Of a DNA stretch of 64,000 nucleotides, positions 4,289-18,119 are shown piece by piece; position 1 is the first letter of the stretch; every line of letters starts with the position of its first letter. The notes beneath the pieces were generated by a model. It was not told where the DNA came from. It searched no databases and saw only the letters and a program-made list of their open reading frames with translations. Where the stretch lies: NCBI RefSeq assembly GCF_000021645.1, contig NC_011661.1, positions 1,768,723-1,832,722 on the forward strand, read 5' to 3'. The position numbers and the translations under genes are program-made. Source of the stretch: Dictyoglomus turgidum DSM 6724. Lineage in GTDB: Bacteria > Dictyoglomota > Dictyoglomia > Dictyoglomales > Dictyoglomaceae.

Positions 4289-5074
4289 TTATGATAATTC
4301 CTTAGCAAAAAGGGCAGCTCCTAAAGCCCCAACTATTTGGGGTTCATGGGGAGTTTTTATACTTACTCCTATTAACTCCTCTAATGCCTTTACAACTCCA
4401 ATATTTTTTGCTACTCCCCCACTCATAACTACCTCCTGATCTATGCCTACCCTCTTGACAAGAGCAACCGCTCTTTTAGCTACCGAATAATTAATTCCTT
4501 TTATAATTTTTTCCTTAGGTACGCCCTCAGAAATTAGGGTTATTATTTCAGATTCTGCAAAAACAGTACAAATATTAGTTATATCCACGTAATCTGAGGT
4601 TTTAAGATGAATTTCTCCAAATTCATCAAAAGAAACTTGAAGTACCTTAGACATGATCTCCAAAAAGCGTCCTGTCCCTGCGGCACACTTGTCATTCATT
4701 ACAAAATCAAGTACAGCACCATTTTTACCAATTTTTATCACTTTACTATCTTGTCCACCTATATCTATCACTGTTCTTGCATCTGGAAATAAAAAATTTA
4801 TACCTTTAGCATGACAAGATATTTCAGTTTTGGATTTGTCAGTAAAATCCACTTTTATCCTTCCATAACCTGTAGCCACAATACTGTTAATATCCTTTAA
4901 AGAGATATTATGAGTTTTCAGCAAATCGTCAATCAGATCCAAAGCAGTTTTATTCCCATCAGAACCTGTTTCTCTTATAGCATAACCCAAAATATTATCT
5001 TTTGTCCCATTGGATGAAAGCAAAACAACCTTTGTGGTAGCTGAACCAATATCTACTCCTAAGAAATACTTCAT
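4289..5074 (-). CDS. 2-hydroxyacyl-CoA dehydratase activator-type ATPase (HgdC/BadF family)
   Basis: 261-residue homolog of archerase, the ATP-dependent one-electron donor that activates 2-hydroxyacyl-CoA dehydratases, benzoyl-CoA reductases and double-cubane proteins. The ASKHA phosphate loop is at residues 6-16 (GVDIGSATTK). The two cysteines that hold the dimer-bridging [4Fe-4S] cluster are C130 (NDKCAAGTGRFLE) and C169 (CTVFAESE), matching C127 and C166 of HgdC as I recall it. Its start overlaps the stop of the 408-aa subunit by 4 bp (ATGA), so translation is coupled. It is probably the dedicated reductase for the two subunits upstream. Confidence 0.92.
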   Translation of the reverse strand: MKYFLGVDIGSATTKVVLLSSNGTKDNILGYAIRETGSDGNKTALDLIDDLLKTHNISLKDINSIVATGYGRIKVDFTDKSKTEISCHAKGINFLFPDARTVIDIGGQDSKVIKIGKNGAVLDFVMNDKCAAGTGRFLEIMSKVLQVSFDEFGEIHLKTSDYVDITNICTVFAESEIITLISEGVPKEKIIKGINYSVAKRAVALVKRVGIDQEVVMSGGVAKNIGVVKALEELIGVSIKTPHEPQIVGALGAALFAKELS

Positions 5075-6297
5075 GATATCACCTCTAAAAAGGCTTCTAT
5101 TCTCGTTTTAATCTGCTCTTTGGGAAAATTAAGTTCATCTACTAGGTCTCCATCAATTACAAGAGAGGGAACTCCCTCTCTTACAAGTTTTTGCCTAATT
5201 ATATAAGTAGGTACTGAACCTTGTCTACATCCCCATTGATTGAAAATTATCACCCCATGAGCTTTATATTTTTCTACGTTTTCTAATGCTACCTTTATTC
5301 TATCCTCCAAACTTGAGAAGGCTTTAAGATTTATTAGCTTTTTAGCAAGAGATTCAAAGGGGTTATTAATATCAAGCCTTTCCCAAGAGACCGATGTAGA
5401 TTCCTCAAAAACAATGTACGCTCCTTTATCATTTAGCCACTTAAAAAGGTCTGTCTTAAAATAGGGGCCAAGATGCATCCAGTATAATCTTACTTTTGGT
5501 TCTATAATTTTACCTTTTTGAATTCTACTTTTTATCTCATCTCTTAGGGTCTTAAAGAATTCAACTCCATACTTAGAGCCAAAAACTGAAAAAATCATCC
5601 CAGCATAATCAAGAAAATTTTTACCATCCATCACTACGTAATCTCTTCTAAGTTCTTTCACTTCTTCAAAATAATTATAAGCCTCATTGGACAAAATAAT
5701 AACTTTCTTAAGCCTTTCTATTCCATCTTTTACCCCGAGCCTTTTAGTAAGTTCATAATATATCCTCTCAATTTGAGAAGCTAAATACTCTTCATCTTCA
5801 AAAGAATCTATGACAAAAATCTCTCCTCCATTCAATTCTTTTATGAGACTAAAAGAAAATATGGGAGAAAAGCATGGCTTTGTATAGCTTACGAGGAAAT
5901 CAGGAGTAGGAAAAACCTTTAATTTTGATAATCCCAAAATACCTCTATGTACACTACATACATCAGAATTTCCCAAAATTCCCTCGCTTTCATTAAGAGC
6001 TCTTCTTAATAAACCAAGAGCAGAGAAAAAACCTGATGCTACTTCTGGAAGAAGGGGATATATATCTAAAGCATAGAATATCTCTGAGGGAGTAAAAATA
6101 TTTATCATAACTTTTTTACTCTTCTTACCATATATGTACTTTATCAGATCTAAAGCATACAGGTAGGAGATTTTTGTAACTTTGTCTTCCTTGTATTTCG
6201 CGTTGATGAAGATCTTTGCCCCTAAATAGACAGGAAAAGAACCCACAAAATTTTTTATTAAATTTTGTCTTTCATAAACTAACTTTTCTACGCTCAT
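5071..6297 (-). CDS. 2-hydroxyacyl-CoA dehydratase / double-cubane family subunit (larger)
   Basis: 408-residue protein of the HgdB/BcrB/FldB superfamily, a partner of the 339-aa subunit whose 3' end overlaps it by 26 bp. Three cysteines sit at positions expected for an Fe-S cluster: C114 (DVCSVHRG), C142 (KPCFSP) and C357 (WGCRQGS). The C-terminal signature is KTRIEAFLEV. Known relatives remove water from 2-hydroxyacyl-CoAs, reduce aromatic CoA thioesters or, as double-cubane proteins, reduce small molecules. No CoA-transferase or CoA-ligase lies nearby and the operon neighbour is a sugar kinase, so the substrate is unknown. Confidence 0.85.
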   Translation of the reverse strand: MSVEKLVYERQNLIKNFVGSFPVYLGAKIFINAKYKEDKVTKISYLYALDLIKYIYGKKSKKVMINIFTPSEIFYALDIYPLLPEVASGFFSALGLLRRALNESEGILGNSDVCSVHRGILGLSKLKVFPTPDFLVSYTKPCFSPIFSFSLIKELNGGEIFVIDSFEDEEYLASQIERIYYELTKRLGVKDGIERLKKVIILSNEAYNYFEEVKELRRDYVVMDGKNFLDYAGMIFSVFGSKYGVEFFKTLRDEIKSRIQKGKIIEPKVRLYWMHLGPYFKTDLFKWLNDKGAYIVFEESTSVSWERLDINNPFESLAKKLINLKAFSSLEDRIKVALENVEKYKAHGVIIFNQWGCRQGSVPTYIIRQKLVREGVPSLVIDGDLVDELNFPKEQIKTRIEAFLEVIS

Positions 6298-7291
6298 AAA
6301 TCATCTCCACAAAAGCTTCAACTCTTGTTCTTATTTGTCCTTTATTCCCTAAGGTATAATCATCCTCAATTGTAAGAACTGGAAGATTCAAAGTTTTAAT
6401 AATCTCCCTCAATCTTGCTGATTGGTAGATAAGAGGATCACAGAATTTTAGAGTATAAATAATAACTCCATCAATATTTTCCTTCAACCTTTTTATATTT
6501 TCAATCCTTTTTTCCTGCCCCAAACTTCTAACACATGCAGTTCTTTTAAGATAATACTCGGAGATAACATAAAAAGGATCTTTATGGTAATTTTCAACTC
6601 TTTCTAATAAATTCCCCCCAAAACAGGAATCAATATAAGCAACCTCAACTCCTAAGCTATGTAAGTATTTAATAAAATCAAGAGGAAACATAGAAGAGAG
6701 TAAATAAACTTTTACCTGAGGGTTATGATCATAATTATTCTCAAAGTTAGTATAGGCTTCTCCAGTAAGAAGAGAAAATATAGATAAAGGATTTAACCCA
6801 TCTCTCCTAATCTTATCCCTTAAAGAGTTGTAAAAATCAATCGTCTTAACAAGCTTTTCCGTTTCTATACCACCGTTTAGGTCTTTAAAAAGTTCCTTAA
6901 GTTCAGTAGCAAAGTATTTTACAGAATTCTCATCACTATTAAAGGGAATTCTTAAGAAATAAATACTATTAGAAACTCCTAACTCTTTCCAACACTCATA
7001 TATTCTCTTTGAGGAATCACAACCATCGGTAAGAATGATCTTTTCCAAATTTAAACCATTTCTTAAAATATATTCATTCACATTTCTGATGTATGGACAG
7101 AAATATTTAGGATATACCTCGTCAGTTCTTTCTGGATATAAAGGAGGAAAAATTATAGGAAGAGGTTCAAAACCTGAAGCGGAAATAATCTCGGGAGGTA
7201 CATAGGAACACATATATCCTACATACCCCCCTGAATTAATCTTGTCTTTTAAGTATGAATAATAATCAAAATATTCTCCTATTTCCTCCAT
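6272..7291 (-). CDS. 2-hydroxyacyl-CoA dehydratase / double-cubane family subunit (smaller)
   Basis: 339-residue HgdB-family protein. Family marks are GYMCSYVPPEIISASGF (C28), FCPYIRN (C65), DGCDSSKRIYECW (C91, C100), KFCDPLIYQ (C284) and the terminal GQIRTRVEAFVEM. Cysteines C28, C91 and C284 are good candidates for cluster ligands. No ribosome-binding site precedes ATG at 7291; instead a TGATATAAT box ends 8 nt upstream, so it may be read from a leaderless transcript as well as from araB read-through. It is the first gene of a coupled trio with the 408-aa subunit and the activator. The reaction is unknown. Confidence 0.87.
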   Translation of the reverse strand: MEEIGEYFDYYSYLKDKINSGGYVGYMCSYVPPEIISASGFEPLPIIFPPLYPERTDEVYPKYFCPYIRNVNEYILRNGLNLEKIILTDGCDSSKRIYECWKELGVSNSIYFLRIPFNSDENSVKYFATELKELFKDLNGGIETEKLVKTIDFYNSLRDKIRRDGLNPLSIFSLLTGEAYTNFENNYDHNPQVKVYLLSSMFPLDFIKYLHSLGVEVAYIDSCFGGNLLERVENYHKDPFYVISEYYLKRTACVRSLGQEKRIENIKRLKENIDGVIIYTLKFCDPLIYQSARLREIIKTLNLPVLTIEDDYTLGNKGQIRTRVEAFVEMIYERRKVSL

Positions 7292-7299
7292 TGAGAAAG

Positions 7300-7308
7300 A
7301 TTATATCA
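7300..7308 (-). promoter_or_regulatory. Extended -10 promoter, probably leaderless, for the dehydratase-like trio
   Basis: TGATATAAT on the minus strand, ending 8 nt before ATG at 7291, in the 23-bp gap after araB. No Shine-Dalgarno sequence and no clear -35 box are seen. Confidence 0.55.
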
Positions 7309-7314
7309 CAAAAA

Positions 7315-9027
7315 CTACTTTACTCCTTTAACCTTATCTCTAATTTCAATCAATTCTTTCATCACATGGTACAAATTATAAGAGGCTTCTTTGGTTCCAA
7401 AAATATCATGAAGCTCCCTATATAACTTATAAAGTTTATTGTAAATCTCACTATCTTCTTGCCTTGGATAATATACTTTATCCTTTACTCTACATATAGC
7501 CTTTTGTGCTTCCTCCACATTCCTATACCCGCTTTTCTCATATCCCGCAGCTACTGCTCCAAAAATAGCTGCTCCCAGAGCCGGCGTTTGAGAAGAATAG
7601 GATATTTTTATTGTCCTTCCTAATATATCAGCATAAACCTGCATCATAAAAGGATTCTTTTCAGGTATACCACCACATGCTATAACTTCATTGACTTTCA
7701 CTCCATATTCTTCAAATCTTTCCATTATCACTCTTGCTCCAAAAGCTGTCGCTTCTATTAACGCTCTGTAGATCTCTTCTGGTCTTGTATGAAGGGTTTG
7801 TCCTATAAGAAGGCCAGTTAACTTTGCATCTACAAGTACTGTTCTATTTCCATTATTCCAATCCAAAGCAAGAAGTCCGCTTTCTCCTGTCTTTAGCTTC
7901 TCTGCCTTCTCTGTTAAGAGTTGATGCAAATCCTTGTTTTTTCCCTCTTCTCCAAAATATTCCCTCGGAGTTAAATACTTCACAAACCAGTTAAATATAT
8001 CTCCTACAGCAGACTGCCCTGCCTCGAGCCCATAATATCCTGGAAGAATTGAACCATCTACTATTCCACAAAGCCCAGGTATGTCAGGAAGTTTCTCAGT
8101 ATTTGGTACCACCATCATATCGCAAGTAGAAGTGCCTATAACCTTCACAAGCACACCAGGCTTAATTCCTGCTCCAACTCCACCCATGTGAGCATCAAAA
8201 GCTCCTACAGCTACTACTACATCTTTATTTAAGCCAAATTTATCCGCATAATACTCTGATATATATCCAAAAGGAACATCAGAAGTATAAGCCTTATCGT
8301 ATAGCCTATCCCTCAAATCTGCTAACTTAGGATCTAACTGAGAAAGAAATTCCTTACTGGGCAATCCTCCCCATTCCAAATTGAACATAGCTTTATGCCC
8401 TGCTGCACATATACTTCTTTTTATCTCATGAGGTTTAGTCTTTCCTGTCAAAACTGCTGGTATATAATCACATATCTCAACCCAAGTATATGCAGAATCA
8501 AACACCTTAGGATCTACTCTTAAACAATGTAATATCTTGGAGAAGAACCATTCTGAGGAATATACACCCCCGTATTTCCTTAAATAAGGATATCCCTTCT
8601 CGTTAGCCAGTCTCGTTATCTCCTCGGCTTCCTCATAACTTGAGTGATCCTTCCAAAGCCACGCTAAAGCATTAATGTTATCTTTAAATTCTTCATGAAA
8701 GGCAAGAGGAACCCCATCCTTATCTATTGGTAAAGGAGTACTTCCTGTAGTATCTATTCCTATCCCTATAACATCCTTTCTACTAAACTCCTTACTATTT
8801 TTCTCTGCCTCCCTTAATGCTCCTTCTATAGTTACCTCAAGACCTTTTATATAATCTGCCGGATGTTGTCTTGCCACATTAGGATTTTTAGGGTCAAGAA
8901 TTACGCCATCTTCTCCATGTTCATAATTATAAACATACGTGCCTAATTCTTCTCCATTACTTATATCTACTACAAGGGCCCTCACAGAATTGGTCCCATA
9001 ATCTAAACCAATAGCATATTTACCCAT
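7315..9027 (-). CDS. araB: L-ribulokinase
   Basis: ATP-dependent phosphorylation of L-ribulose to L-ribulose 5-phosphate in the cytoplasmic L-arabinose pathway. At 570 residues it has the usual AraB length, longer than xylulokinases (about 500). The FGGY N-terminus (GLDYGTNSVRALVVD) is followed by AraB-type motifs: ARQHPADYIKGLE, YGGVYSSEWFFSKI, VIGTSTCDMMV and GLEAGQSAVGDIFNWFVKY. A GGGGAGGTG ribosome-binding site precedes the ATG. No araA or araD is in the window. Its promoter region carries the second operator copy (9059-9077), so it is probably co-regulated with the sugar transporter. The downstream partners are the dehydratase-like genes. Confidence 0.87.
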   Translation of the reverse strand: MGKYAIGLDYGTNSVRALVVDISNGEELGTYVYNYEHGEDGVILDPKNPNVARQHPADYIKGLEVTIEGALREAEKNSKEFSRKDVIGIGIDTTGSTPLPIDKDGVPLAFHEEFKDNINALAWLWKDHSSYEEAEEITRLANEKGYPYLRKYGGVYSSEWFFSKILHCLRVDPKVFDSAYTWVEICDYIPAVLTGKTKPHEIKRSICAAGHKAMFNLEWGGLPSKEFLSQLDPKLADLRDRLYDKAYTSDVPFGYISEYYADKFGLNKDVVVAVGAFDAHMGGVGAGIKPGVLVKVIGTSTCDMMVVPNTEKLPDIPGLCGIVDGSILPGYYGLEAGQSAVGDIFNWFVKYLTPREYFGEEGKNKDLHQLLTEKAEKLKTGESGLLALDWNNGNRTVLVDAKLTGLLIGQTLHTRPEEIYRALIEATAFGARVIMERFEEYGVKVNEVIACGGIPEKNPFMMQVYADILGRTIKISYSSQTPALGAAIFGAVAAGYEKSGYRNVEEAQKAICRVKDKVYYPRQEDSEIYNKLYKLYRELHDIFGTKEASYNLYHVMKELIEIRDKVKGVK

Positions 9028-9098: not shown

Positions 9099-10499
9099 TT
9101 AGTAGTTCAAGTAATCTCTAAGCTCTTTATTAAAAGGCTGAGATAGGATCTCATCTAAAACAGAAAGCACTTGCTCATAAGACTTAGTTCTTGGATCTCT
9201 AATTAATATCTCTTCCAGAACCTTTACATCTTTGGAAATAAATCCCTCCAATGCCCATTCCATTCTTAAAATTCTTGGTATTAAATAGAAGATTTTTATT
9301 CTATGAGTAAGATCAGGCTCTATTTTTTCATGCTTTATTCCCGATTCATCTACCCATACAGGAATCTCCACCACTACATCATCAGGAATTCCAGAGATAG
9401 TACCCCGATTAGGAACATTTAGTATTAATCTTGAATTACCTCCGCCAGTAATGCTATTTATAAAATGTACATGTTGCTCACCGCTTAACTTATCTCTATT
9501 AAATAGCTCAGGCCATATATCCATGAGCTTTATACTTTTATCTTTTTCCACTTCTTTAGCGAGTTCAATTATCTTTCTTCTACCCTTCCTCAATTCTTCG
9601 TGAAATTTAGGTCTTTCTATCTCATTATCAATACCCCCAAATTTTCCATACCACTTTTTCTTAGTCTCAAGATTATAATTATATTTCCAAGTACCATTTC
9701 TACAGGTATCTCCTATAGGAAGCATCCCATAAAATTTATACATATCTATTACCGCAGGACTCATTTGAAGATCCCATGGGTTTTTAGGTTCCCAATTTTG
9801 AGCCTCTTTTTCAATCCATTCGTCAAGAAGAGGATAAGCATTTTTGCCCCTATATAAAAATCTGTTCAAGAAGATCCCATGATTAACACCAGCAACTTGC
9901 CAATCCACCTCTTTCGGATCTAATCTTAAAGAATTGAACACTTCATATACTCCATGAAAGCCATGACATATACCTACCACCTTTATATCAGTTAACCTGT
10001 TCAAAAGCTGACTAATCTCAAACACAGGATTTGCAGTTTGAAGTAACCATGAAGATGGAGCATATTTTTTCATGGCTTTTGCTATATCAAGAGCAAGCTT
10101 TAAATCGTAATAGGAAATAAGCCCATAAGTATAAGTAGACACCATATTTAATTCTTGACTATCAATTCCCCTATAATAGCCATGTTTTTCTCCAATTTGG
10201 GTAATTAAATCATATTTTATAAATCCATCTTCGTGTCCTTGAGGAAAAGGAAGGGCAGTATTTATAATAAAATCTGCTCCTTCAATCCCCTCTTCAAGAC
10301 TTTTTGTCTTTTCAAATCTTAAGTCAGCTTCAAGCTCTTCTATATACTTTTTAGCAAGAATATAAGAGGCATTTAACCTTTCTTCATGTACATCTACCAT
10401 GGATATTAAAGTCCCATTTAATCTTGGCGTTTTAGCAATATCCCCAATAATCTGTAAAGAAAACCTAATACTTCCTGCTCCTACAATAGCTATTTTCAT
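9099..10499 (-). CDS. GH4 glycosidase, probable alpha-glucuronidase
   Basis: 466-residue NAD- and Mn-dependent glycoside hydrolase of family 4, acting by oxidation-elimination rather than by acid catalysis. Visible marks are the N-terminal dinucleotide fold (VGAGS at 6-10), C178-H179 (GICHG, metal and NAD region), TANP at 155-158, and N206-H207 (AGVNHG). The stretch VNHGIFLNRF followed by NAYPLLDEWIE, MYKFYGMLPIGDT and LETKKKWYG resembles, from memory, the Thermotoga maritima alpha-glucuronidase Agu4B more than alpha-glucosidases or galactosidases. That would remove glucuronic acid from hemicellulose oligosaccharides in the cytoplasm. It follows the AEC gene by 22 bases. Confidence 0.78.
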   Translation of the reverse strand: MKIAIVGAGSIRFSLQIIGDIAKTPRLNGTLISMVDVHEERLNASYILAKKYIEELEADLRFEKTKSLEEGIEGADFIINTALPFPQGHEDGFIKYDLITQIGEKHGYYRGIDSQELNMVSTYTYGLISYYDLKLALDIAKAMKKYAPSSWLLQTANPVFEISQLLNRLTDIKVVGICHGFHGVYEVFNSLRLDPKEVDWQVAGVNHGIFLNRFLYRGKNAYPLLDEWIEKEAQNWEPKNPWDLQMSPAVIDMYKFYGMLPIGDTCRNGTWKYNYNLETKKKWYGKFGGIDNEIERPKFHEELRKGRRKIIELAKEVEKDKSIKLMDIWPELFNRDKLSGEQHVHFINSITGGGNSRLILNVPNRGTISGIPDDVVVEIPVWVDESGIKHEKIEPDLTHRIKIFYLIPRILRMEWALEGFISKDVKVLEEILIRDPRTKSYEQVLSVLDEILSQPFNKELRDYLNY

Positions 10500-10521: not shown

Positions 10522-11412
10522 TTATTTGAACAACACAAGAAAAATTATACCTAAAAGTATAGTAAGGGATACATAAAAAGAGGCAAATTTTGAATTTAAA
10601 CCCTTTTCGTTGGAATAAATTACCACTACAAGGGGTGCTGGAAGCAGTACCCCTATGGAGATAATTTTAACCATTAAAGAATGCCATATAGATCTTAATA
10701 CCAAAGAAAAAATTATTCCTGGGATAAATCTTATTAAAGTTCCATATATTAAGGCTCTTATTTCAGCTTTATTTAACCTAAAATCTAAAAAATAACCAAG
10801 GGTAAAAAGAGCAAGAGTAGAGTTGGGAATAGAAAGTTGAGATATAAGAGAGATAAAAATTTCTGGAAAATTAACTTTTAAAAGACTTAATAGAATAGAA
10901 ATTATATAAACCTGCAAAGGGAAAAAAGAAAAAACTCTCTCTAAAAGATGAGTAGTTTTATTAAAGGACCATCCATCCTCAGACACTAAGGAAAGAGCAT
11001 AAGAAAGCCCAAAAACAATAAAAGAATTTCCTATATCAAACATCGCCATATAGAGAAGTCCTTCATCACCATAAAGACTTTTAATGAAAGGATAAGAGAA
11101 AAGACCTACGTTATAACCACATATTCCTATCAGTAAAGTCCATTTTAATCTATCTTCTAACTCCAAATTGTTTAAAAGTAAAAAACCAATGAGAAATATT
11201 AGTAGTCCAAAAAAGAATGAAATTAAAGGAACTATAAAAAGATCAAGCTTCAAAGCTGAAGAAATAAAAACTTTTAAAACAGTTGCAGGAAGGGTTATAT
11301 ATATTACAAGTCTGCTAAGGACCGTTCCTGTATCTTCAGGGAATAATTTTATTTTTTTTGCAATATGCCCTATAATTATCACAAGCACATTTATTAAGAT
11401 ACTTTCTGCCAT
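10522..11412 (-). CDS. AEC-family (auxin efflux carrier-like) transporter
   Basis: 296-residue integral membrane protein with about ten hydrophobic helices in two halves, typical of the AEC/BART family; some bacterial members move organic acids, but no substrate can be assigned here. The start (MAESILINVLVIIIGHIAKK) has no ribosome-binding site; a TGATATAAT element ends 9 nt upstream, suggesting a leaderless mRNA. It is the promoter-proximal gene before the GH4 enzyme and diverges from araM with only 38 bp between start codons. A second AEC gene is at 60837-61745. Confidence 0.88.
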   Translation of the reverse strand: MAESILINVLVIIIGHIAKKIKLFPEDTGTVLSRLVIYITLPATVLKVFISSALKLDLFIVPLISFFFGLLIFLIGFLLLNNLELEDRLKWTLLIGICGYNVGLFSYPFIKSLYGDEGLLYMAMFDIGNSFIVFGLSYALSLVSEDGWSFNKTTHLLERVFSFFPLQVYIISILLSLLKVNFPEIFISLISQLSIPNSTLALFTLGYFLDFRLNKAEIRALIYGTLIRFIPGIIFSLVLRSIWHSLMVKIISIGVLLPAPLVVVIYSNEKGLNSKFASFYVSLTILLGIIFLVLFK

Positions 11413-11450: not shown

Positions 11451-12650
11451 ATGTTAGTTTGGGACAAAGATTACTCAAAATTAATCTCCTATATCAAAAT
11501 TCAAAAAGAAAAACCCTTTCTTCTTGCTGATGAAAACACCTACGAAGTATGTGGAAAAGAAATTGAAAACAAACTAAAAGAACTAAACATTAACTATGAT
11601 CTGTTAATATTGCCCAGGGATACTCATGCAAATGAGAAACACATCTGTAAAGTAATGCTTTATGTAGATCACCATCACATGATGGTATCCATAGGTGCAG
11701 GAAGTCTAACAGATATTGCAAGATTTATCGCTTATAAAATGAAGCTTAAATTTATATCTGTGCCCACAGCTCCATCTATGGATGGCTATGCTTCTTCAGT
11801 TGCAGCTCTTACAATCGAGGATATAAAAACTACGGTAATAGCAAAAACTCCTAAAAAGATCTTTGCCAATCTTGAGATTATAAAAAATGCTCCCGATATA
11901 CTTAAAAGGGCTGGTTTTGGAGACCTAATAGGAAAGTATACTGCTCTTTCCGATTGGAAGTTAGCAAATATTCTCATAGATGAGCCTTTAAATGAGAAAG
12001 TTTATAATGAGATGTATAAAGCTTGTGAGAATACTGTAAAAAGCATAAATAAACCCGATTTTGAAAAACTCCTTCTTGAAGCCCTTATAAAATCAGGAGA
12101 ATTGATGGCAATTGTAGGTAATTCCAGACCTGCATCGGGCGCAGAACATCATATTGCTCATTATCTAGAATTCTTAGGTTATGAGATATTTCACGGAATA
12201 AAAGTTGGCATTTCCACCTTCTATGTAATAGATCTATATGAAAAACTTCTTGAGCTTAATCTTGATAATATTGATGAATATTTAGCTTACAGAATAGATA
12301 TAGACCAGTGGAAAGGGGAGATAAAAACCCACTTTCCTAAAAATAGTGAGAGAATAATAAAAGAAAACATAGAAAGGATTAAAAAATTTAACGATCTATC
12401 TTTTAGAAAAGATCTGATAGAGAGAATAAAACTGAACAGGCACAAAATATATGCCATTGCAGAAAATCTCCTTGATAAGAAAGAAGAGATAACAAAAGCA
12501 TGTAATAAAATTGGATTTTCTACAAATCCAGAGGACTGGGGTATTAAAAAGGAAGATATCAAAAAAGCAATTCAGTACGCTTTATACATAAGAGATAGAT
12601 TTACTATTCTTACTTTATATCAATTTTTAGGAATTTTAAAAAATTTTTAA
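11451..12650 (+). CDS. araM: AraM/EgsA-type glycerol-1-phosphate dehydrogenase
   Basis: 399-residue member of the iron-alcohol-dehydrogenase/DHQS fold that in homologs reduces dihydroxyacetone phosphate to sn-glycerol 1-phosphate, the archaeal-type lipid backbone. Marks: NAD loop GAGSLTDIARFIAYK, PTAPSMDGYASSVA, GFGDLIGKYTALSDWKLA (metal-ligand aspartate), SGAEHHIAHYLE and FHGIKVGIST (metal-ligand histidines). A GGGGG site precedes ATG at 11451. As I recall, the B. subtilis homolog AraM uses Ni2+; a nickel importer lies in this window. Its place next to araB and GH4 follows the AraM link to arabinose operons. Its product in this organism is unproven. Confidence 0.82.
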   Translation: MLVWDKDYSKLISYIKIQKEKPFLLADENTYEVCGKEIENKLKELNINYDLLILPRDTHANEKHICKVMLYVDHHHMMVSIGAGSLTDIARFIAYKMKLKFISVPTAPSMDGYASSVAALTIEDIKTTVIAKTPKKIFANLEIIKNAPDILKRAGFGDLIGKYTALSDWKLANILIDEPLNEKVYNEMYKACENTVKSINKPDFEKLLLEALIKSGELMAIVGNSRPASGAEHHIAHYLEFLGYEIFHGIKVGISTFYVIDLYEKLLELNLDNIDEYLAYRIDIDQWKGEIKTHFPKNSERIIKENIERIKKFNDLSFRKDLIERIKLNRHKIYAIAENLLDKKEEITKACNKIGFSTNPEDWGIKKEDIKKAIQYALYIRDRFTILTLYQFLGILKNF

Positions 12651-12700: not shown

Positions 12701-14857
12701 TTGAGAAAGAGGATTGGAGTCATAGTAAACTACTTATATGAGGAATACCAATTAAAGGTAATCTCTGGAATAATTAATACTTCCAGAAAGTATAATATTG
12801 ATCTTTTCATCTTTGTGGGAGGAAATCTAAATTATGATATAGAAAACCTACAGAGAAATAAAATATATCAGTTGATAAACTATAAAGATATTGATGGATT
12901 AATAATTCTTGGTTTAGTCCTTGGATACAACATACCAAAAGAAAAGATTATTGGATTCTATAAAAATTTTAGTGATATACCTACAGTAAGCATTGGGCTT
13001 ACCGTAGAAAACTTTCCTTCTATTACCATTGATAACTCAAAGGGCTTTATTAACCTACTTGATCACCTTGTAAAAGACCATAAATACAAAAATTTTACCT
13101 TCGTAACAGGACCTCTAAACAATGATGAGGCAAAAGAGAGATATGAGATCTTTTTGAAAATAATGAGAGAGAACAATATAGAGATAAAAGATGACCATAT
13201 TTACGAAGGGGATTTCTCAAAGTTTTCTGGGATTAATGCAGTAAGAACTTTTTTGGACGAGAGAAAGTTAAAGCCAGATGTAATTGTCTTTTCCAACGAC
13301 ATGATGGCTATAGGTGGAATAGAAGAACTTAAAAGAAGAAAGATAAAAATTCCAGAAGATATTGCAATAACCGGCTTTGATAATATTGAGGAATCCTATT
13401 TTATAACCCCTTCTCTTACTACCGTAAACCAGCCCCTTTACGAGCTTGGAGAAAAAGCATTAGAGATCTGCTTATCTATAATCTTAGGAGAAAAAGTAAA
13501 AGAGAATATTGTCCTCCCCACAAGATTAATAATAAGAGAATCTTGTGGACATAAAGAAGAAATTTTTAATAAAGCAATTCCACCATCGGAAAAGAAAATA
13601 GTAAATATTACTGAGGCTAAAATTCTAAAAAATAAATTTTTAGAATTTCTAACAGAAGATTCTCAAATTAAAAAGGAAAACTATGAGTTGTTCTCTAAAA
13701 TTTATGATCTATTTTTTACCTCCCTATTTGAGAAACGACAAATCTTTTTAGAAAAAATTCATGAGTACTTGGAAAAAAATCTCTCCACCACAGAAGAGTT
13801 AAAAGAAATAGTGTTTTTAATTGACTCCTTTACTAAAACATATTTAGAAAAAGATTTAAAGAAAGATGCAGAAACTCTAATCCTGAAAGCAGAAAGAATA
13901 ATAAGTACTTATTCAGAAAAGTTATTAAGATATGAGCAATACAAAACTAACGAAGAAATAGAACTTTTAGGATATATTGGTTCTGATCTACTTTCAAGTT
14001 TTAGAATGGAGGATATTATAGAAAGGATATCTGCAAGACTTCCAGAGTTAAATATCAACAGTTTTTACCTTGTATTCACCGATGAAAACCTAAAAGAGAA
14101 AAAACTTATATTTGCCCACTTAAGAGATGAAAATGTTCGAGAAGAAATAAAACTTAGCTTTGATGAAATAATACCTAAAAAACTTTATCCTAAGGAAAGA
14201 AAAGAACTTATAGTAAAACCTCTTTATTTTCAAGAAAACTTTTTTGGATATATGGTATTGGAGTATGGTCCCAAGAGAGGTGTAATATATGAAATTTTAA
14301 GATCTCAGATTAGTGCAGCCATTCAAGGAGCAAAAATCTTCGAAGAACTAAACCGATTAGCCATTACTGACCCACTAACCCAACTTTTTAATAGGAGATA
14401 TATTGAAGAGGAACTTAGAAAAGAGATAGAAAGATCCAAAAGATATTCAAGACCATTGTCGGTTATGGTGCTCGATCTTGATAATTTCAAAATTATAAAT
14501 GACATCTTGGGTCATCAATACGGAGATGAAGTACTAAAGAAGATTGGAGAAAATTTGAAGAAATCTTGTAGAAAAGTAGACACCGTAGGAAGATTTGGAG
14601 GAGACGAATTTGTAATAATCCTGCCAGAAACGAATCTTGAAAAGAGTATAAAAGTTGCAAATAAAATAATAAAAAACCTTGAAAAAATGGAGATAAAATT
14701 TCCCAACGGTGAAAAAATATACATAAGTATAAGTATTGGTATAGCATCATATCCGGAAACCAGTAAAGATCCAGAAAAAATTTTAAGTCTTGCTGATTCA
14801 GCAATGTATAATGCAAAAAGATTAGGAGGAAAGCAATATTCTATTGCAAGTTTTTAA
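12701..14857 (+). CDS. LacI-type ligand-binding domain fused to diguanylate cyclase
   Basis: 718 residues from a TTG start with AAAAGGGG upstream. Residues 1-285 are a LacI/PBP1-type sugar-binding domain (TVNQPLYELGEKALE, ending IIRESCGH), but the protein begins directly at its first beta strand (MRKRIGVIVNYLYEEYQ): there is no helix-turn-helix, signal peptide or membrane helix, so it is cytoplasmic. A helical linker and a GAF-like region (about 420-545) lead to a GGDEF domain with GGDEF at 633-637 and an intact inhibitory RxxD site (RKVD) five residues before it. It should make c-di-GMP in response to a small molecule, perhaps a sugar. It is paralogous to the next gene. Confidence 0.9.
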   Translation: MRKRIGVIVNYLYEEYQLKVISGIINTSRKYNIDLFIFVGGNLNYDIENLQRNKIYQLINYKDIDGLIILGLVLGYNIPKEKIIGFYKNFSDIPTVSIGLTVENFPSITIDNSKGFINLLDHLVKDHKYKNFTFVTGPLNNDEAKERYEIFLKIMRENNIEIKDDHIYEGDFSKFSGINAVRTFLDERKLKPDVIVFSNDMMAIGGIEELKRRKIKIPEDIAITGFDNIEESYFITPSLTTVNQPLYELGEKALEICLSIILGEKVKENIVLPTRLIIRESCGHKEEIFNKAIPPSEKKIVNITEAKILKNKFLEFLTEDSQIKKENYELFSKIYDLFFTSLFEKRQIFLEKIHEYLEKNLSTTEELKEIVFLIDSFTKTYLEKDLKKDAETLILKAERIISTYSEKLLRYEQYKTNEEIELLGYIGSDLLSSFRMEDIIERISARLPELNINSFYLVFTDENLKEKKLIFAHLRDENVREEIKLSFDEIIPKKLYPKERKELIVKPLYFQENFFGYMVLEYGPKRGVIYEILRSQISAAIQGAKIFEELNRLAITDPLTQLFNRRYIEEELRKEIERSKRYSRPLSVMVLDLDNFKIINDILGHQYGDEVLKKIGENLKKSCRKVDTVGRFGGDEFVIILPETNLEKSIKVANKIIKNLEKMEIKFPNGEKIYISISIGIASYPETSKDPEKILSLADSAMYNAKRLGGKQYSIASF

Positions 14858-14897
14858 AGATTAAAATTAAATATCAAAGCGGGGGAGGATGAATTTA

Positions 14898-17800
14898 ATG
14901 CGGAAAAATATTGGAATATTCGTAGACAATTTAAATGTATATCAATGGAATATTTTAAAGGGAATTTTCTCATATGCAGAGAGAAAGGATATAAATCTCT
15001 ATTGTATTGTAGGAAAAACCTTAAACTCTCCCTTTGATTATGAAAAATGCGCCAATAAAATCTATTATTTGATCTCTAAAAAAGATATTGATGGACTGAT
15101 AATGTTCACCTCTGCTTTAAGTTCTCACATCCCTAATGAAGAAACCATAAAATTCTGCAAACTATTCTCTGAAAATATACCTACTGTAAGTATTGGACTT
15201 CCCTTAGAAAAGGTTCCAAGCTTTATTGTTGACAATATTAATGGTTTCAAAGAACTTTTGATCCATCTCATTGAAGACCATGGTTATACAAAGTTTGCTT
15301 TTATAACTGGGCCCATGGATAATATTGAAGCCAGAATAAGATATGAAACTTTTATGGAGGCTTTGTCTCAATATGATATAAAGGTACCAGAAGATCACAT
15401 ATATTATGGAGATTTTCTACATGAATCAGGGAAAAAGGCTATAAAAACCTTTTTTGATGAGAGAAAGATAAAACCCGAAGTTATTATTTCATCCAATGAT
15501 GACATGGCTCTTTCAGCTATTGAAGAACTCAAAAAAAGAAAATTTCTTATACCAGAAGATATTAAAATTACTGGATTTGACGATGTAGAAGAAGCAAGCT
15601 TTATAACTCCACCTCTCACTACGGTAAGACAACCCCTTTTTGAGATGGGCGAAAAAGCTATAGAGACCTTAGTAAATATTATAGAGGGAAGAGAAATAGA
15701 AAATATGGAACCTCTTCCCACTAAATTAATTATAAGGGAATCTTGCGGATGTAAATATTCAGCGCTGGACAGAGCAAAGGTGGAGCCTAAAAAAGTAAAC
15801 ATAAGCCTCTCCTGGGAGAAATTAGAGGACTTAAAAGAGGAATTTGTAAAAGTGGCAAGTAAAGTCCAGTATGAATTAGAAAAAAATGAGTTAATAGAAC
15901 TTTACAAAAGCTTTCTTACCAGTTTAAGAGAGAAAAATCCAGACTATTTTATCAATTATCTCCAGAAACTCCTTAAGACAAGGGAATTAATCACCCCTCA
16001 AATAGGATATTTCCAAGATTACATTTCCACATTAAGAAGATTTGTCATATATTATGTGGATAAAGATGATTTGGCCTTTGCAGAAAATCTTTGGCATCAA
16101 GCAAGGGTCATAATAAGCGATTATGCAGAAAGGTCTCAGGGATATAAAAAAGCTCAATTAGAAGAAGATTTTCAAAATCTGACAGGTTTTGGAATAAATC
16201 TAATTTCTTCCTTTAATAAAGATGCTATTGTAAATTATCTAAAAGATAATTTACCTGATCTTGGTATAAAGAGCTTCTATATTGTAGAGCAGGAAAATTC
16301 TCAGAATAAAAAGAATTTACTTTTTGGCTATTCAGAAAATGCAGAACATAAAGATATAAAATTTTCAGACGAATTTATACCTAAAAGAATTCTCCCTAAA
16401 AGGAGATTTACATATATTATAGAACCCCTATATTTCCAAGATACATTTTTTGGATATGCTCTTTTTGAACTTGGTATCCCACATAGATTTTTTTATGAGA
16501 TTCTAAGAACCCAAATAAGTGCAGGAATCCAGGGAGCAAAATTATTTGAAGAAAGAAGAGCATATGAAGATCAGCTAATAGAACATATCCGAGAGTTATC
16601 AATTCTAAATGAGATTGGAAATACCATAACCTCCTCCATCGAACTAGATCTAATATGGGATCTTGTCTCAAGCAAAATAGCAAATCTATTTGATTATGAT
16701 GCTTTTTACTTAGCTCTTCTAAATGGAAATGAAAATATCTTAGATATAAAAGTGAAAAAACTTAAAAAGACTCATGAAAAGTTAACTAATGCAGACAAAA
16801 ACATAATAATAGAGTCAATAAAAAATAATAACCCTATGCTTATAAAGAAAGAAAACAAAAACATTTTATGTGTACCATTAATTACAGGAAGAGGAGTAAA
16901 AGGTGCCATAGTCCTTAAACATGAAAATGATGTATACACCGAGAAGACAGTAAACTTTTTAAAAGCTATTGCCAATTATATTTCTATAGCTATTGAAAAT
17001 GCCTTTCTATTTGAAGAGATAAAGAAATTAGCAACCATAGATCCTCTTACAGGAGTTCTAAATAGGAGAGCTTTAGAGGAAGGGTTTAACAAAGATGTAG
17101 AAAGGGCAAAAAGATACAATAGACCCCTTTCTGCAATAGTAATAGATGTGGACAATTTTAAGTTATTTAATGATACCTATGGACACACTTTTGGAGACCA
17201 AGTACTAAGAGAGTTAGCGAAAATTTTAAAAAATTCATGTAGAAAAACGGACTTAGTAGGAAGATATGGAGGAGATGAATTCGCAATAATCTTACCAGAG
17301 ACCAATTTAGAGGGGGCTATTAAACTTGCAGAAAGATTATTAAAGAGTATTAGAAACTTAACCATTACAACTCCTACGAACAACAAAATCCCTATAAAAA
17401 TAAGTATGGGAATAGCATCTTATCCTGATGATACTAATGAACCAGAGAAACTATTGACCCTTGCAGATATAGCCATGTACAAAGCTAAAACTTCAGGAGG
17501 AGATTCTTTTAGTACCATATCTTGCTCCTACAAAACTCCCATGTCCAAAGAAGCCCCTAAATTTGATGAATTTCTTGGTTTAATTAATGCCATTGATAAC
17601 AAGGACAATTACACTTATACTCATTGTAACGAAGTAGCCAAATATGCAAGAAAAATTGGAGAAAAATTAGGACTTTCTAAAGAAGATCTTGAGATATTAG
17701 AGCTTGCAGGAAAACTTCATGATATTGGAAAAATTGGAATACCCTTCGAAATACTTAAAAAACCAGGACCTCTAACCGATGAGGAATGGAAGATTATTAA

Positions 17801-18119
17801 GGAACATCCAAGATTAGGCTACCTTATATTAAACCAACTTCCCAAAATGGAAAAACTCCTTCAGGCAGTACTTTATCACCATGAGAGATATGATGGAAAA
17901 GGATATCCCCAAAGCCTTCAGGGAAAGGAAATTCCTCTTCTTGCAAGGATTATCGCAGTAGCTGATGCCTACTCTGCAATGAAATCCAATAGACCTTACA
18001 GAAAAGGCCTTTCTAAGAAAGAGATCATTAATGAAATAAAGAAAAATATGGGCAAACAATTTGATCCAGAGATTGCCCAATTATTTTTAGAATTATTAGA
18101 AAAAGGAGAAATTGAGTGA
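14898..18119 (+). CDS. LacI-type ligand-binding, GAF, GGDEF and HD-GYP protein
   Basis: 1073-residue c-di-GMP enzyme. ATG at 14889 directly abuts the GGGGGAGG site; ATG at 14898 has 9-nt spacing and gives MRKNIGIFVDN, matching the neighbour. Order: LacI-type sugar-binding domain (1-285), helical linker, two GAF-like regions (about 420-545 and 560-710), GGDEF domain (GGDEF at 791-795, RKTD inhibitory site just before), HD-GYP domain (H941-D942, HHERYDGKGYP with GYP at 1002-1004). Both synthase and phosphodiesterase motifs look intact. There are no membrane segments. It sits 40 bases after the paralog, probably in one transcript. Which activity dominates cannot be read from sequence. Confidence 0.9.
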   Translation: MRKNIGIFVDNLNVYQWNILKGIFSYAERKDINLYCIVGKTLNSPFDYEKCANKIYYLISKKDIDGLIMFTSALSSHIPNEETIKFCKLFSENIPTVSIGLPLEKVPSFIVDNINGFKELLIHLIEDHGYTKFAFITGPMDNIEARIRYETFMEALSQYDIKVPEDHIYYGDFLHESGKKAIKTFFDERKIKPEVIISSNDDMALSAIEELKKRKFLIPEDIKITGFDDVEEASFITPPLTTVRQPLFEMGEKAIETLVNIIEGREIENMEPLPTKLIIRESCGCKYSALDRAKVEPKKVNISLSWEKLEDLKEEFVKVASKVQYELEKNELIELYKSFLTSLREKNPDYFINYLQKLLKTRELITPQIGYFQDYISTLRRFVIYYVDKDDLAFAENLWHQARVIISDYAERSQGYKKAQLEEDFQNLTGFGINLISSFNKDAIVNYLKDNLPDLGIKSFYIVEQENSQNKKNLLFGYSENAEHKDIKFSDEFIPKRILPKRRFTYIIEPLYFQDTFFGYALFELGIPHRFFYEILRTQISAGIQGAKLFEERRAYEDQLIEHIRELSILNEIGNTITSSIELDLIWDLVSSKIANLFDYDAFYLALLNGNENILDIKVKKLKKTHEKLTNADKNIIIESIKNNNPMLIKKENKNILCVPLITGRGVKGAIVLKHENDVYTEKTVNFLKAIANYISIAIENAFLFEEIKKLATIDPLTGVLNRRALEEGFNKDVERAKRYNRPLSAIVIDVDNFKLFNDTYGHTFGDQVLRELAKILKNSCRKTDLVGRYGGDEFAIILPETNLEGAIKLAERLLKSIRNLTITTPTNNKIPIKISMGIASYPDDTNEPEKLLTLADIAMYKAKTSGGDSFSTISCSYKTPMSKEAPKFDEFLGLINAIDNKDNYTYTHCNEVAKYARKIGEKLGLSKEDLEILELAGKLHDIGKIGIPFEILKKPGPLTDEEWKIIKEHPRLGYLILNQLPKMEKLLQAVLYHHERYDGKGYPQSLQGKEIPLLARIIAVADAYSAMKSNRPYRKGLSKKEIINEIKKNMGKQFDPEIAQLFLELLEKGEIE

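Follow-up and report, generated by a model that had tools for sequence, protein, structure and literature searches.

A predicted two-subunit radical enzyme, driven by ATP and related to benzoyl-CoA reductase and 2-hydroxyacyl-CoA dehydratase, in Dictyoglomus turgidum

Three minus-strand genes of the hot-spring anaerobe Dictyoglomus turgidum DSM 6724, situated in a 64,000-nucleotide stretch of contig NC_011661.1 (positions 1,768,723 to 1,832,722; this whole stretch is the window), encode two different subunits of the HGD-D fold, beta and alpha, and an ATP-dependent activator. The trio is probably a complete radical enzyme in itself, sensitive to oxygen and driven by ATP, and a member of the superfamily comprising the benzoyl-coenzyme A (CoA) reductases (BCRs), the 2-hydroxyacyl-CoA dehydratases (HADs) and DCCP, with a two-subunit reductase as the preferred form. 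By its ligand pattern, the cluster layout is that of class I BCR, with a different catalytic loop. The trio appears to belong to a separate clade without assigned function, and the literature searched yielded no described function for this set of genes, as an initial annotation of this DNA had held. The three genes and the neighboring araB, which lies outside the enzyme system, are as follows:

6272-7291, minus strand: beta subunit, 339 amino acids, HGD-D fold, with a predicted double-cubane [8Fe-9S] site (C28, C65, C91, C223, C253, C284)
5071-6297, minus strand: alpha subunit, 408 amino acids, HGD-D fold, with a predicted catalytic [4Fe-4S] site (C114, C142, C357 and E85)
4289-5074, minus strand: ATP-dependent activator of the BadF/BcrA/HgdC type, 261 amino acids, with cluster cysteines C130 and C169
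7315-9027, minus strand: araB, L-ribulokinase, 570 amino acids, FGGY (Pfam)

The gene set thus agrees with the initial annotation, which had described araB, two HgdB-superfamily subunits and an activator lying in one direction with overlaps; these amount to 26 nucleotides between the beta and alpha genes and 4 nucleotides between the alpha and activator genes. The superfamily assignment is supported by the Pfam and PDB matches of each of the three proteins. The two subunits match HGD-D in Pfam with E values of 2e-47 and 2e-62, and the activator matches BcrAD_BadFG (E 1e-64) and TIGR00241 (283 bits). Both activator cluster cysteines, already recognized in that annotation, are seen in the alignment, C130 within the motif CAAGTG and C169 as the second, so that HGD-D subunits stand here beside a BadF/BcrA-type activator bearing the inter-subunit cluster cysteines. 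The best PDB match of the activator is HadI (4eht, 6.5e-72). It is the sole protein found in the genome with the cluster-cysteine motif, CxAGTG being absent from the three other non-FGGY matches inspected, and the two subunit genes are the only HGD-D genes in the whole D. turgidum genome. Comparison of two Dictyoglomus species shows purifying selection on each of the three genes, the ratios of nonsynonymous to synonymous substitution rates (dN/dS) being 0.07-0.18; hence, the trio is no chance set of open reading frames.

The cysteine pattern points to one cluster of each kind in the two subunits. In BzdN, the double-cubane [8Fe-9S] cluster is ligated by Cys36/73/100/263/293/327, and in BzdO the [4Fe-4S]-OH2 cluster is held by Cys95/128/380 with Glu65 and His131 around it (PMC11971306). 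In the profile alignment, C28, C65, C91, C223, C253 and C284 of the beta subunit fall on the six BzdN ligand positions, and all six are invariant in five complete Dictyoglomota orthologues. The alpha subunit contains exactly three cysteines, C114, C142 and C357, situated at the positions of BzdO Cys95/128/380, and its E85 aligns with Glu65. The Bzd-type arrangement, in which one subunit supplies six cysteines to [8Fe-9S] and its partner three to [4Fe-4S], is therefore present. The initial annotation had posed the cluster site as either [4Fe-4S] or double-cubane; by ligand pattern both are predicted, the former in alpha and the latter in beta.

The relatives of the trio were gathered from 386 genomes and two further groups, and their alpha and beta sequences, joined end to end, gave a tree of 43 rows. 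The tree separates a side of 13 rows, containing the HAD/Bzd-type pairs, from a side of 30 rows that includes the Dictyoglomota (support 100/99), and within the latter the Dictyoglomota are sister to one other class (support 100/99). The beta-alpha-activator order is kept in both the Dictyoglomota and this sister class. In the 30-row clade, C114, C142 and C357 of alpha and C28, C65, C91, C253 and C284 of beta are each kept in all 30 sequences. The alpha signature of the clade consists of CxxHR after the first cluster cysteine (H117 in 27 of 30), H275 (26 of 30) and F-x-x-W-G-C at the third cluster cysteine (F352 in 26 and W355 in 27 of 30). In the 12 HAD/Bzd-type alphas compared, these four positions are occupied by A/S/V/M, by N/G/T, by His (12/12) and by Arg (12/12), respectively; the HxNRxC loop of those enzymes corresponds to FNxWGC in the trio alpha. 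E85, R118 and the three alpha cysteines are common to both groups. L051, one of the 13 rows, has an alpha with the CxxHR and WxC motifs and yet branches basally on the HAD/Bzd side. HadB, BzdO and DCCP were placed in the alpha tree alone, as fragments from PDB search matches, and DCCP sits there on a very long branch, weakly placed. A profile scan of genome contigs with the alpha alignment found two Dictyoglomota loci and no others, and scans of viral contigs found no relatives of the trio.

Each characterized relative shares part of this architecture and differs from it in other features. BzdNO (Aromatoleum sp. CIB, PDB 8S02, PMC11971306) likewise has two different HGD-D subunits, with the six [8Fe-9S] cysteines in one and the three cysteines and Glu65 of [4Fe-4S]-OH2 in the other. 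However, it possesses a BzdP/BzdQ activator pair where the trio has a single activator; Trp46 and His131 of BzdO are replaced in the trio alpha by Asn66 and Pro/Ala, and HxNRxC by FNxWGC; and the scores against the NCBIfam BzdN/BzdO models are 49.5 bits (cut-off 453.8) and 28.1 bits (cut-off 448.6). In the case of the (R)-2-hydroxyisocaproyl-CoA dehydratase HadBC(I) (PDB 3O3M), the heterodimer, the [4Fe-4S] site in alpha and the single activator resemble the trio. Compared with the trio beta, whose set of six is full, HadC and the HAD-type betas generally are devoid of the equivalents of C28 and C223, an incomplete set that goes with a [4Fe-5S] cluster; the HadBC alpha also differs in its loop and in carrying CxxAR instead of CxxHR. 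Membership in the canonical HADs or BCRs was rejected on model cut-offs and motifs.

DCCP/DCCP-R (PDB 6ENO, 7YYL) shares with the trio an ATP-driven activator and the six-cysteine double-cubane pattern, situated in beta in the trio; the trio activator resembles HadI/MbdQ more than it does DCCP-R. A small-molecule reductase like DCCP, acting on acetylene, hydrazine or azide and on neither CoA esters nor lipids, is improbable. The double_cubane model is the top NCBIfam match of beta (118.7 bits), all six ligands are present, and the trio groups apart from the HAD/Bzd-type enzymes. In contrast, the DCCP model (NF040772) scores, 118.7 and 64.3 bits for the two subunits, fall far under the cut-off of 350, DCCP is a homodimer with a double-cubane cluster per subunit whereas the trio alpha has three cluster cysteines in a two-subunit layout, and the placement of DCCP in the alpha tree is weak.

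The plasmalogen synthase PlsA/PlsR and the modified Thermotoga PlsA combine activator and reductase domains of the same superfamily and act on lipid esters instead of CoA esters. The initial annotation had given CoA esters or, in the double-cubane branch, small molecules as substrates of the family; the plasmalogen synthase branch, which acts on diacyl lipids, was omitted. The PlsA-like proteins found are about 1400 amino acids long with two activator domains per chain, unlike the separate 261-, 339- and 408-residue proteins and single activator of the trio. Membership in PlsA/GeR, a group of long chains bearing two activator and two reductase domains, was rejected, the trio consisting of separate short proteins whose reductase parts are only marginally similar by profile match. 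Split three-gene versions of the long PlsA-like proteins, an activator with two proteins of about 300-370 amino acids, were observed at L149 (G147) and L150 (G201). By the features compared, the trio is thus a member of neither HAD, Bzd-type BCR, DCCP nor PlsA.

For the preferred two-subunit reductase, the following electron path would apply. The activator, a homodimer with one inter-subunit [4Fe-4S] cluster, would take an electron from ferredoxin or flavodoxin and, upon ATP hydrolysis, inject it at very low potential. The electron would enter the double-cubane cluster of beta, which may store two or more electrons, and would then pass to the [4Fe-4S] cluster of alpha, which has three cysteine ligands and, next to Glu85, a water bound to its open iron. 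The reduced cluster-water would finally generate the substrate radical. These steps are drawn by homology; what can be read from the sequences themselves is the ligands, the gene set, the conservation and the single activator. Since the double-cubane cluster is reported in DCCP and BzdNO and not in HadBC, a net two-electron reduction is likelier than a redox-neutral dehydration.

Several observations weigh against this reductase and its predicted clusters. Asn66, four residues before a conserved Pro, stands at the placed position of BzdO Trp46, which occupies the space of the lost sub-cluster in BzdO (PMC11971306), and Pro145 (Ala in the sister genus) stands at that of His131; because both residues are replaced, the pocket is unlike the one in benzoyl-CoA reductases. 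MbdN, although from a class I reductase, is devoid of the equivalents of C28, C223 and C253, and so the equation of a double-cubane cluster with a reductase is no strict rule in either direction. C223, the fourth beta cysteine, is lost in the sister class with the other five invariant, which suggests that the beta cluster may differ even among near relatives. Furthermore, the AlphaFold models of the two subunits, for which two or three sequences served as input, are of low confidence (pLDDT 51 and 62); their significant Foldseek matches, confined to HAD/BCR/DCCP chains, nonetheless support the superfamily assignment. The sister-class trios without the fourth double-cubane cysteine are L063, L112, L113, L115-L122, L130 and L131.

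Profiles of four families, each of which detected members in 5 to 12 of 14 reference genomes as a positive control, gave no match in the complete D. turgidum genome; the families were PF00501 (AMP-binding ligases), PF02515 (CoA_transf_3, type III CoA-transferases), PF01144 (CoA_trans, type I CoA-transferases) and PF13607 (Succ_CoA_lig, ADP-forming ligases). The trio thereby differs from BzdNO in having no CoA ligase found in its genome, and from HadBC in having no CoA-transferase, neither PF02515 nor PF01144 being present. The absence of a nearby CoA-transferase or ligase reported in the initial annotation accordingly extends to the whole genome for these families, and the Dictyoglomus substrate is apparently not activated by the usual enzymes of this kind. 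Of the 17 sister-class loci, on the other hand, some of which are truncated at a contig border, 9 have an AMP-binding gene near or upstream of the trio; its best NCBIfam match is a long-chain-fatty-acid--CoA ligase, below the cut-off. The earlier proposal of a chemistry unrelated to CoA is strengthened by the missing partners in D. turgidum, whereas the fatty-acyl-CoA-ligase-like gene beside sister-class trios tells against it, leaving CoA independence as a candidate reading.

It is quite possible, though not favored, that the trio is CoA-dependent after all, as a dehydratase or reductase on an acyl-CoA, perhaps a fatty-acyl- or 2-hydroxyacyl-CoA, made by a route outside the ligases and transferases searched. 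The characterized two-subunit members HadBC, BzdNO and MbdNO all act on CoA esters, the trio retains Glu85, Arg118 and the three alpha cysteines, and the sister-class ligase-like gene fits as well; the empty search for four CoA-partner families argues against it, as does an alpha loop without the His and Arg found in all 12 HAD/Bzd-type sequences compared. A CoA-free two-subunit double-cubane enzyme, reducing an acyl ester, acyl-ACP (acyl carrier protein) or other non-CoA substrate with ATP-energized electrons and representing a clade (some members with beta-activator fusions) of undescribed chemistry, can be put forward tentatively. The leading guess for the substrate of the two-subunit reductase is a (thio)ester-type acyl compound, because the sister clade adjoins the fatty-acyl-CoA-ligase-like gene.

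A lipid-modifying role, in which an acyl ester or acyl-ACP is reduced at the expense of ATP as by PlsA/PlsR or the proposed Thermotoga ester-to-ether enzyme, is unlikely. PlsA/PlsR belongs to the same superfamily and acts on diacyl lipids (PMC12838417, PMC9702350), and in the sister class the trio is paired with the ligase-like gene and, in many genomes, with an upstream SYLF lipoprotein gene. However, the PlsA-like proteins of 1380-1410 amino acids match the clade alpha/beta profiles marginally outside their activator domains, and the Dictyoglomota carry no adjacent lipid gene, except a glycerol-1-phosphate-dehydrogenase-like gene in one genus. A gene of this kind, situated at 11451-12650 on the plus strand of the window, encodes a protein scoring 199.9 bits against a cut-off of 413 for this archaeal-lipid-type activity, and three Dictyoglomus genomes have it in the vicinity of the operon.

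The co-directional run containing the trio reaches beyond araB and consists of an AEC transporter gene (10522-11412), a GH4 gene (9099-10499), araB and the trio, separated by 22, 71 and 23 nucleotides. The araB product scores 722 bits against the NCBIfam ribulokinase cut-off of 428 bits, and the L-ribulose kinase is Dtur_1748 (PMC5167688). The initial annotation had proposed a tie to pentose use, and araB does adjoin the trio in three Dictyoglomus genomes, co-directionally and at 23-24 nucleotides in D. turgidum and its nearest complete relative. The three genomes of the sister genus, in contrast, keep the trio intact and in the same order (42-68% identity) without araB, beside endonuclease III-like, NAD synthase, NUDIX and nucleotidyl-transferase genes; their araB (80-82% identity) stands beside a LacI regulator without the trio, and in two of these genomes sugar ATP-binding cassette (ABC) transporter genes adjoin it as well. 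In D. turgidum, the same LacI and ABC genes border the trio on the side opposite araB, and none of the other relatives examined has araB as a neighbor. Amino-acid changes accumulate in the trio at 3 to 8 times the araB rate (dN 0.084, 0.110 and 0.203 compared with 0.027 between two Dictyoglomus species), and a lack of growth on arabinose is reported for D. turgidum (PMC5167688). On synteny and relative rates the pentose link was rejected, and a radical dehydratase or reductase that serves pentose use together with araB is hardly credible. The simplest reading is that rearrangement in one genus joined the trio, the LacI/ABC genes and araB; the araB neighbor is uninformative on the function of the trio. 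Between D. turgidum and D. thermophilum, beta is the fastest-evolving of ten genes compared (70% identity, dN/dS 0.18), and araB is 96% identical.

In five genomes from several bacterial families (L066, L071, L072, L073, L124), beta and the activator form a single fused chain of 555-595 amino acids, with a separate alpha adjacent. The neighbors of this subgroup (PsuG/PsuK-like, SIS, NUDIX, GHMP kinase, Sua5) showed no recurrence and gave no functional hint. Alpha and beta form part of an apparent operon at L062 (3024-8498) and L118 (3500-9988); its further products are an AEC transporter, a B12-binding radical SAM protein and a member of the fumarylacetoacetate-hydrolase family, joined in L062 by an isocitrate/isopropylmalate-type dehydrogenase; the AEC transporter is common to these and to the D. 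turgidum run. Elsewhere in the window, two tandem plus-strand genes (12701-14857 and 14889-18119) encode long proteins that, by eye, seem to fuse LacI-type sugar-binding domains to GGDEF, the second also with GAF and HD-GYP domains, and these are possible sugar-sensing cyclic-di-GMP enzymes.

Before BzdN, the [8Fe-9S] double-cubane cluster had been reported only in DCCP (PMC11971306, 2025). If the cysteine pattern means the same here as in BzdN, the cluster would be used by a clade that spans several bacterial groups and includes thermophiles with small genomes. Dictyoglomus, in which there is a single activator beside a single subunit pair and in which the search for CoA-activating enzymes came up empty, represents a clean test case; owing to this simplicity, whether a two-subunit enzyme of the superfamily can act free of CoA may be tested with three heat-stable proteins.

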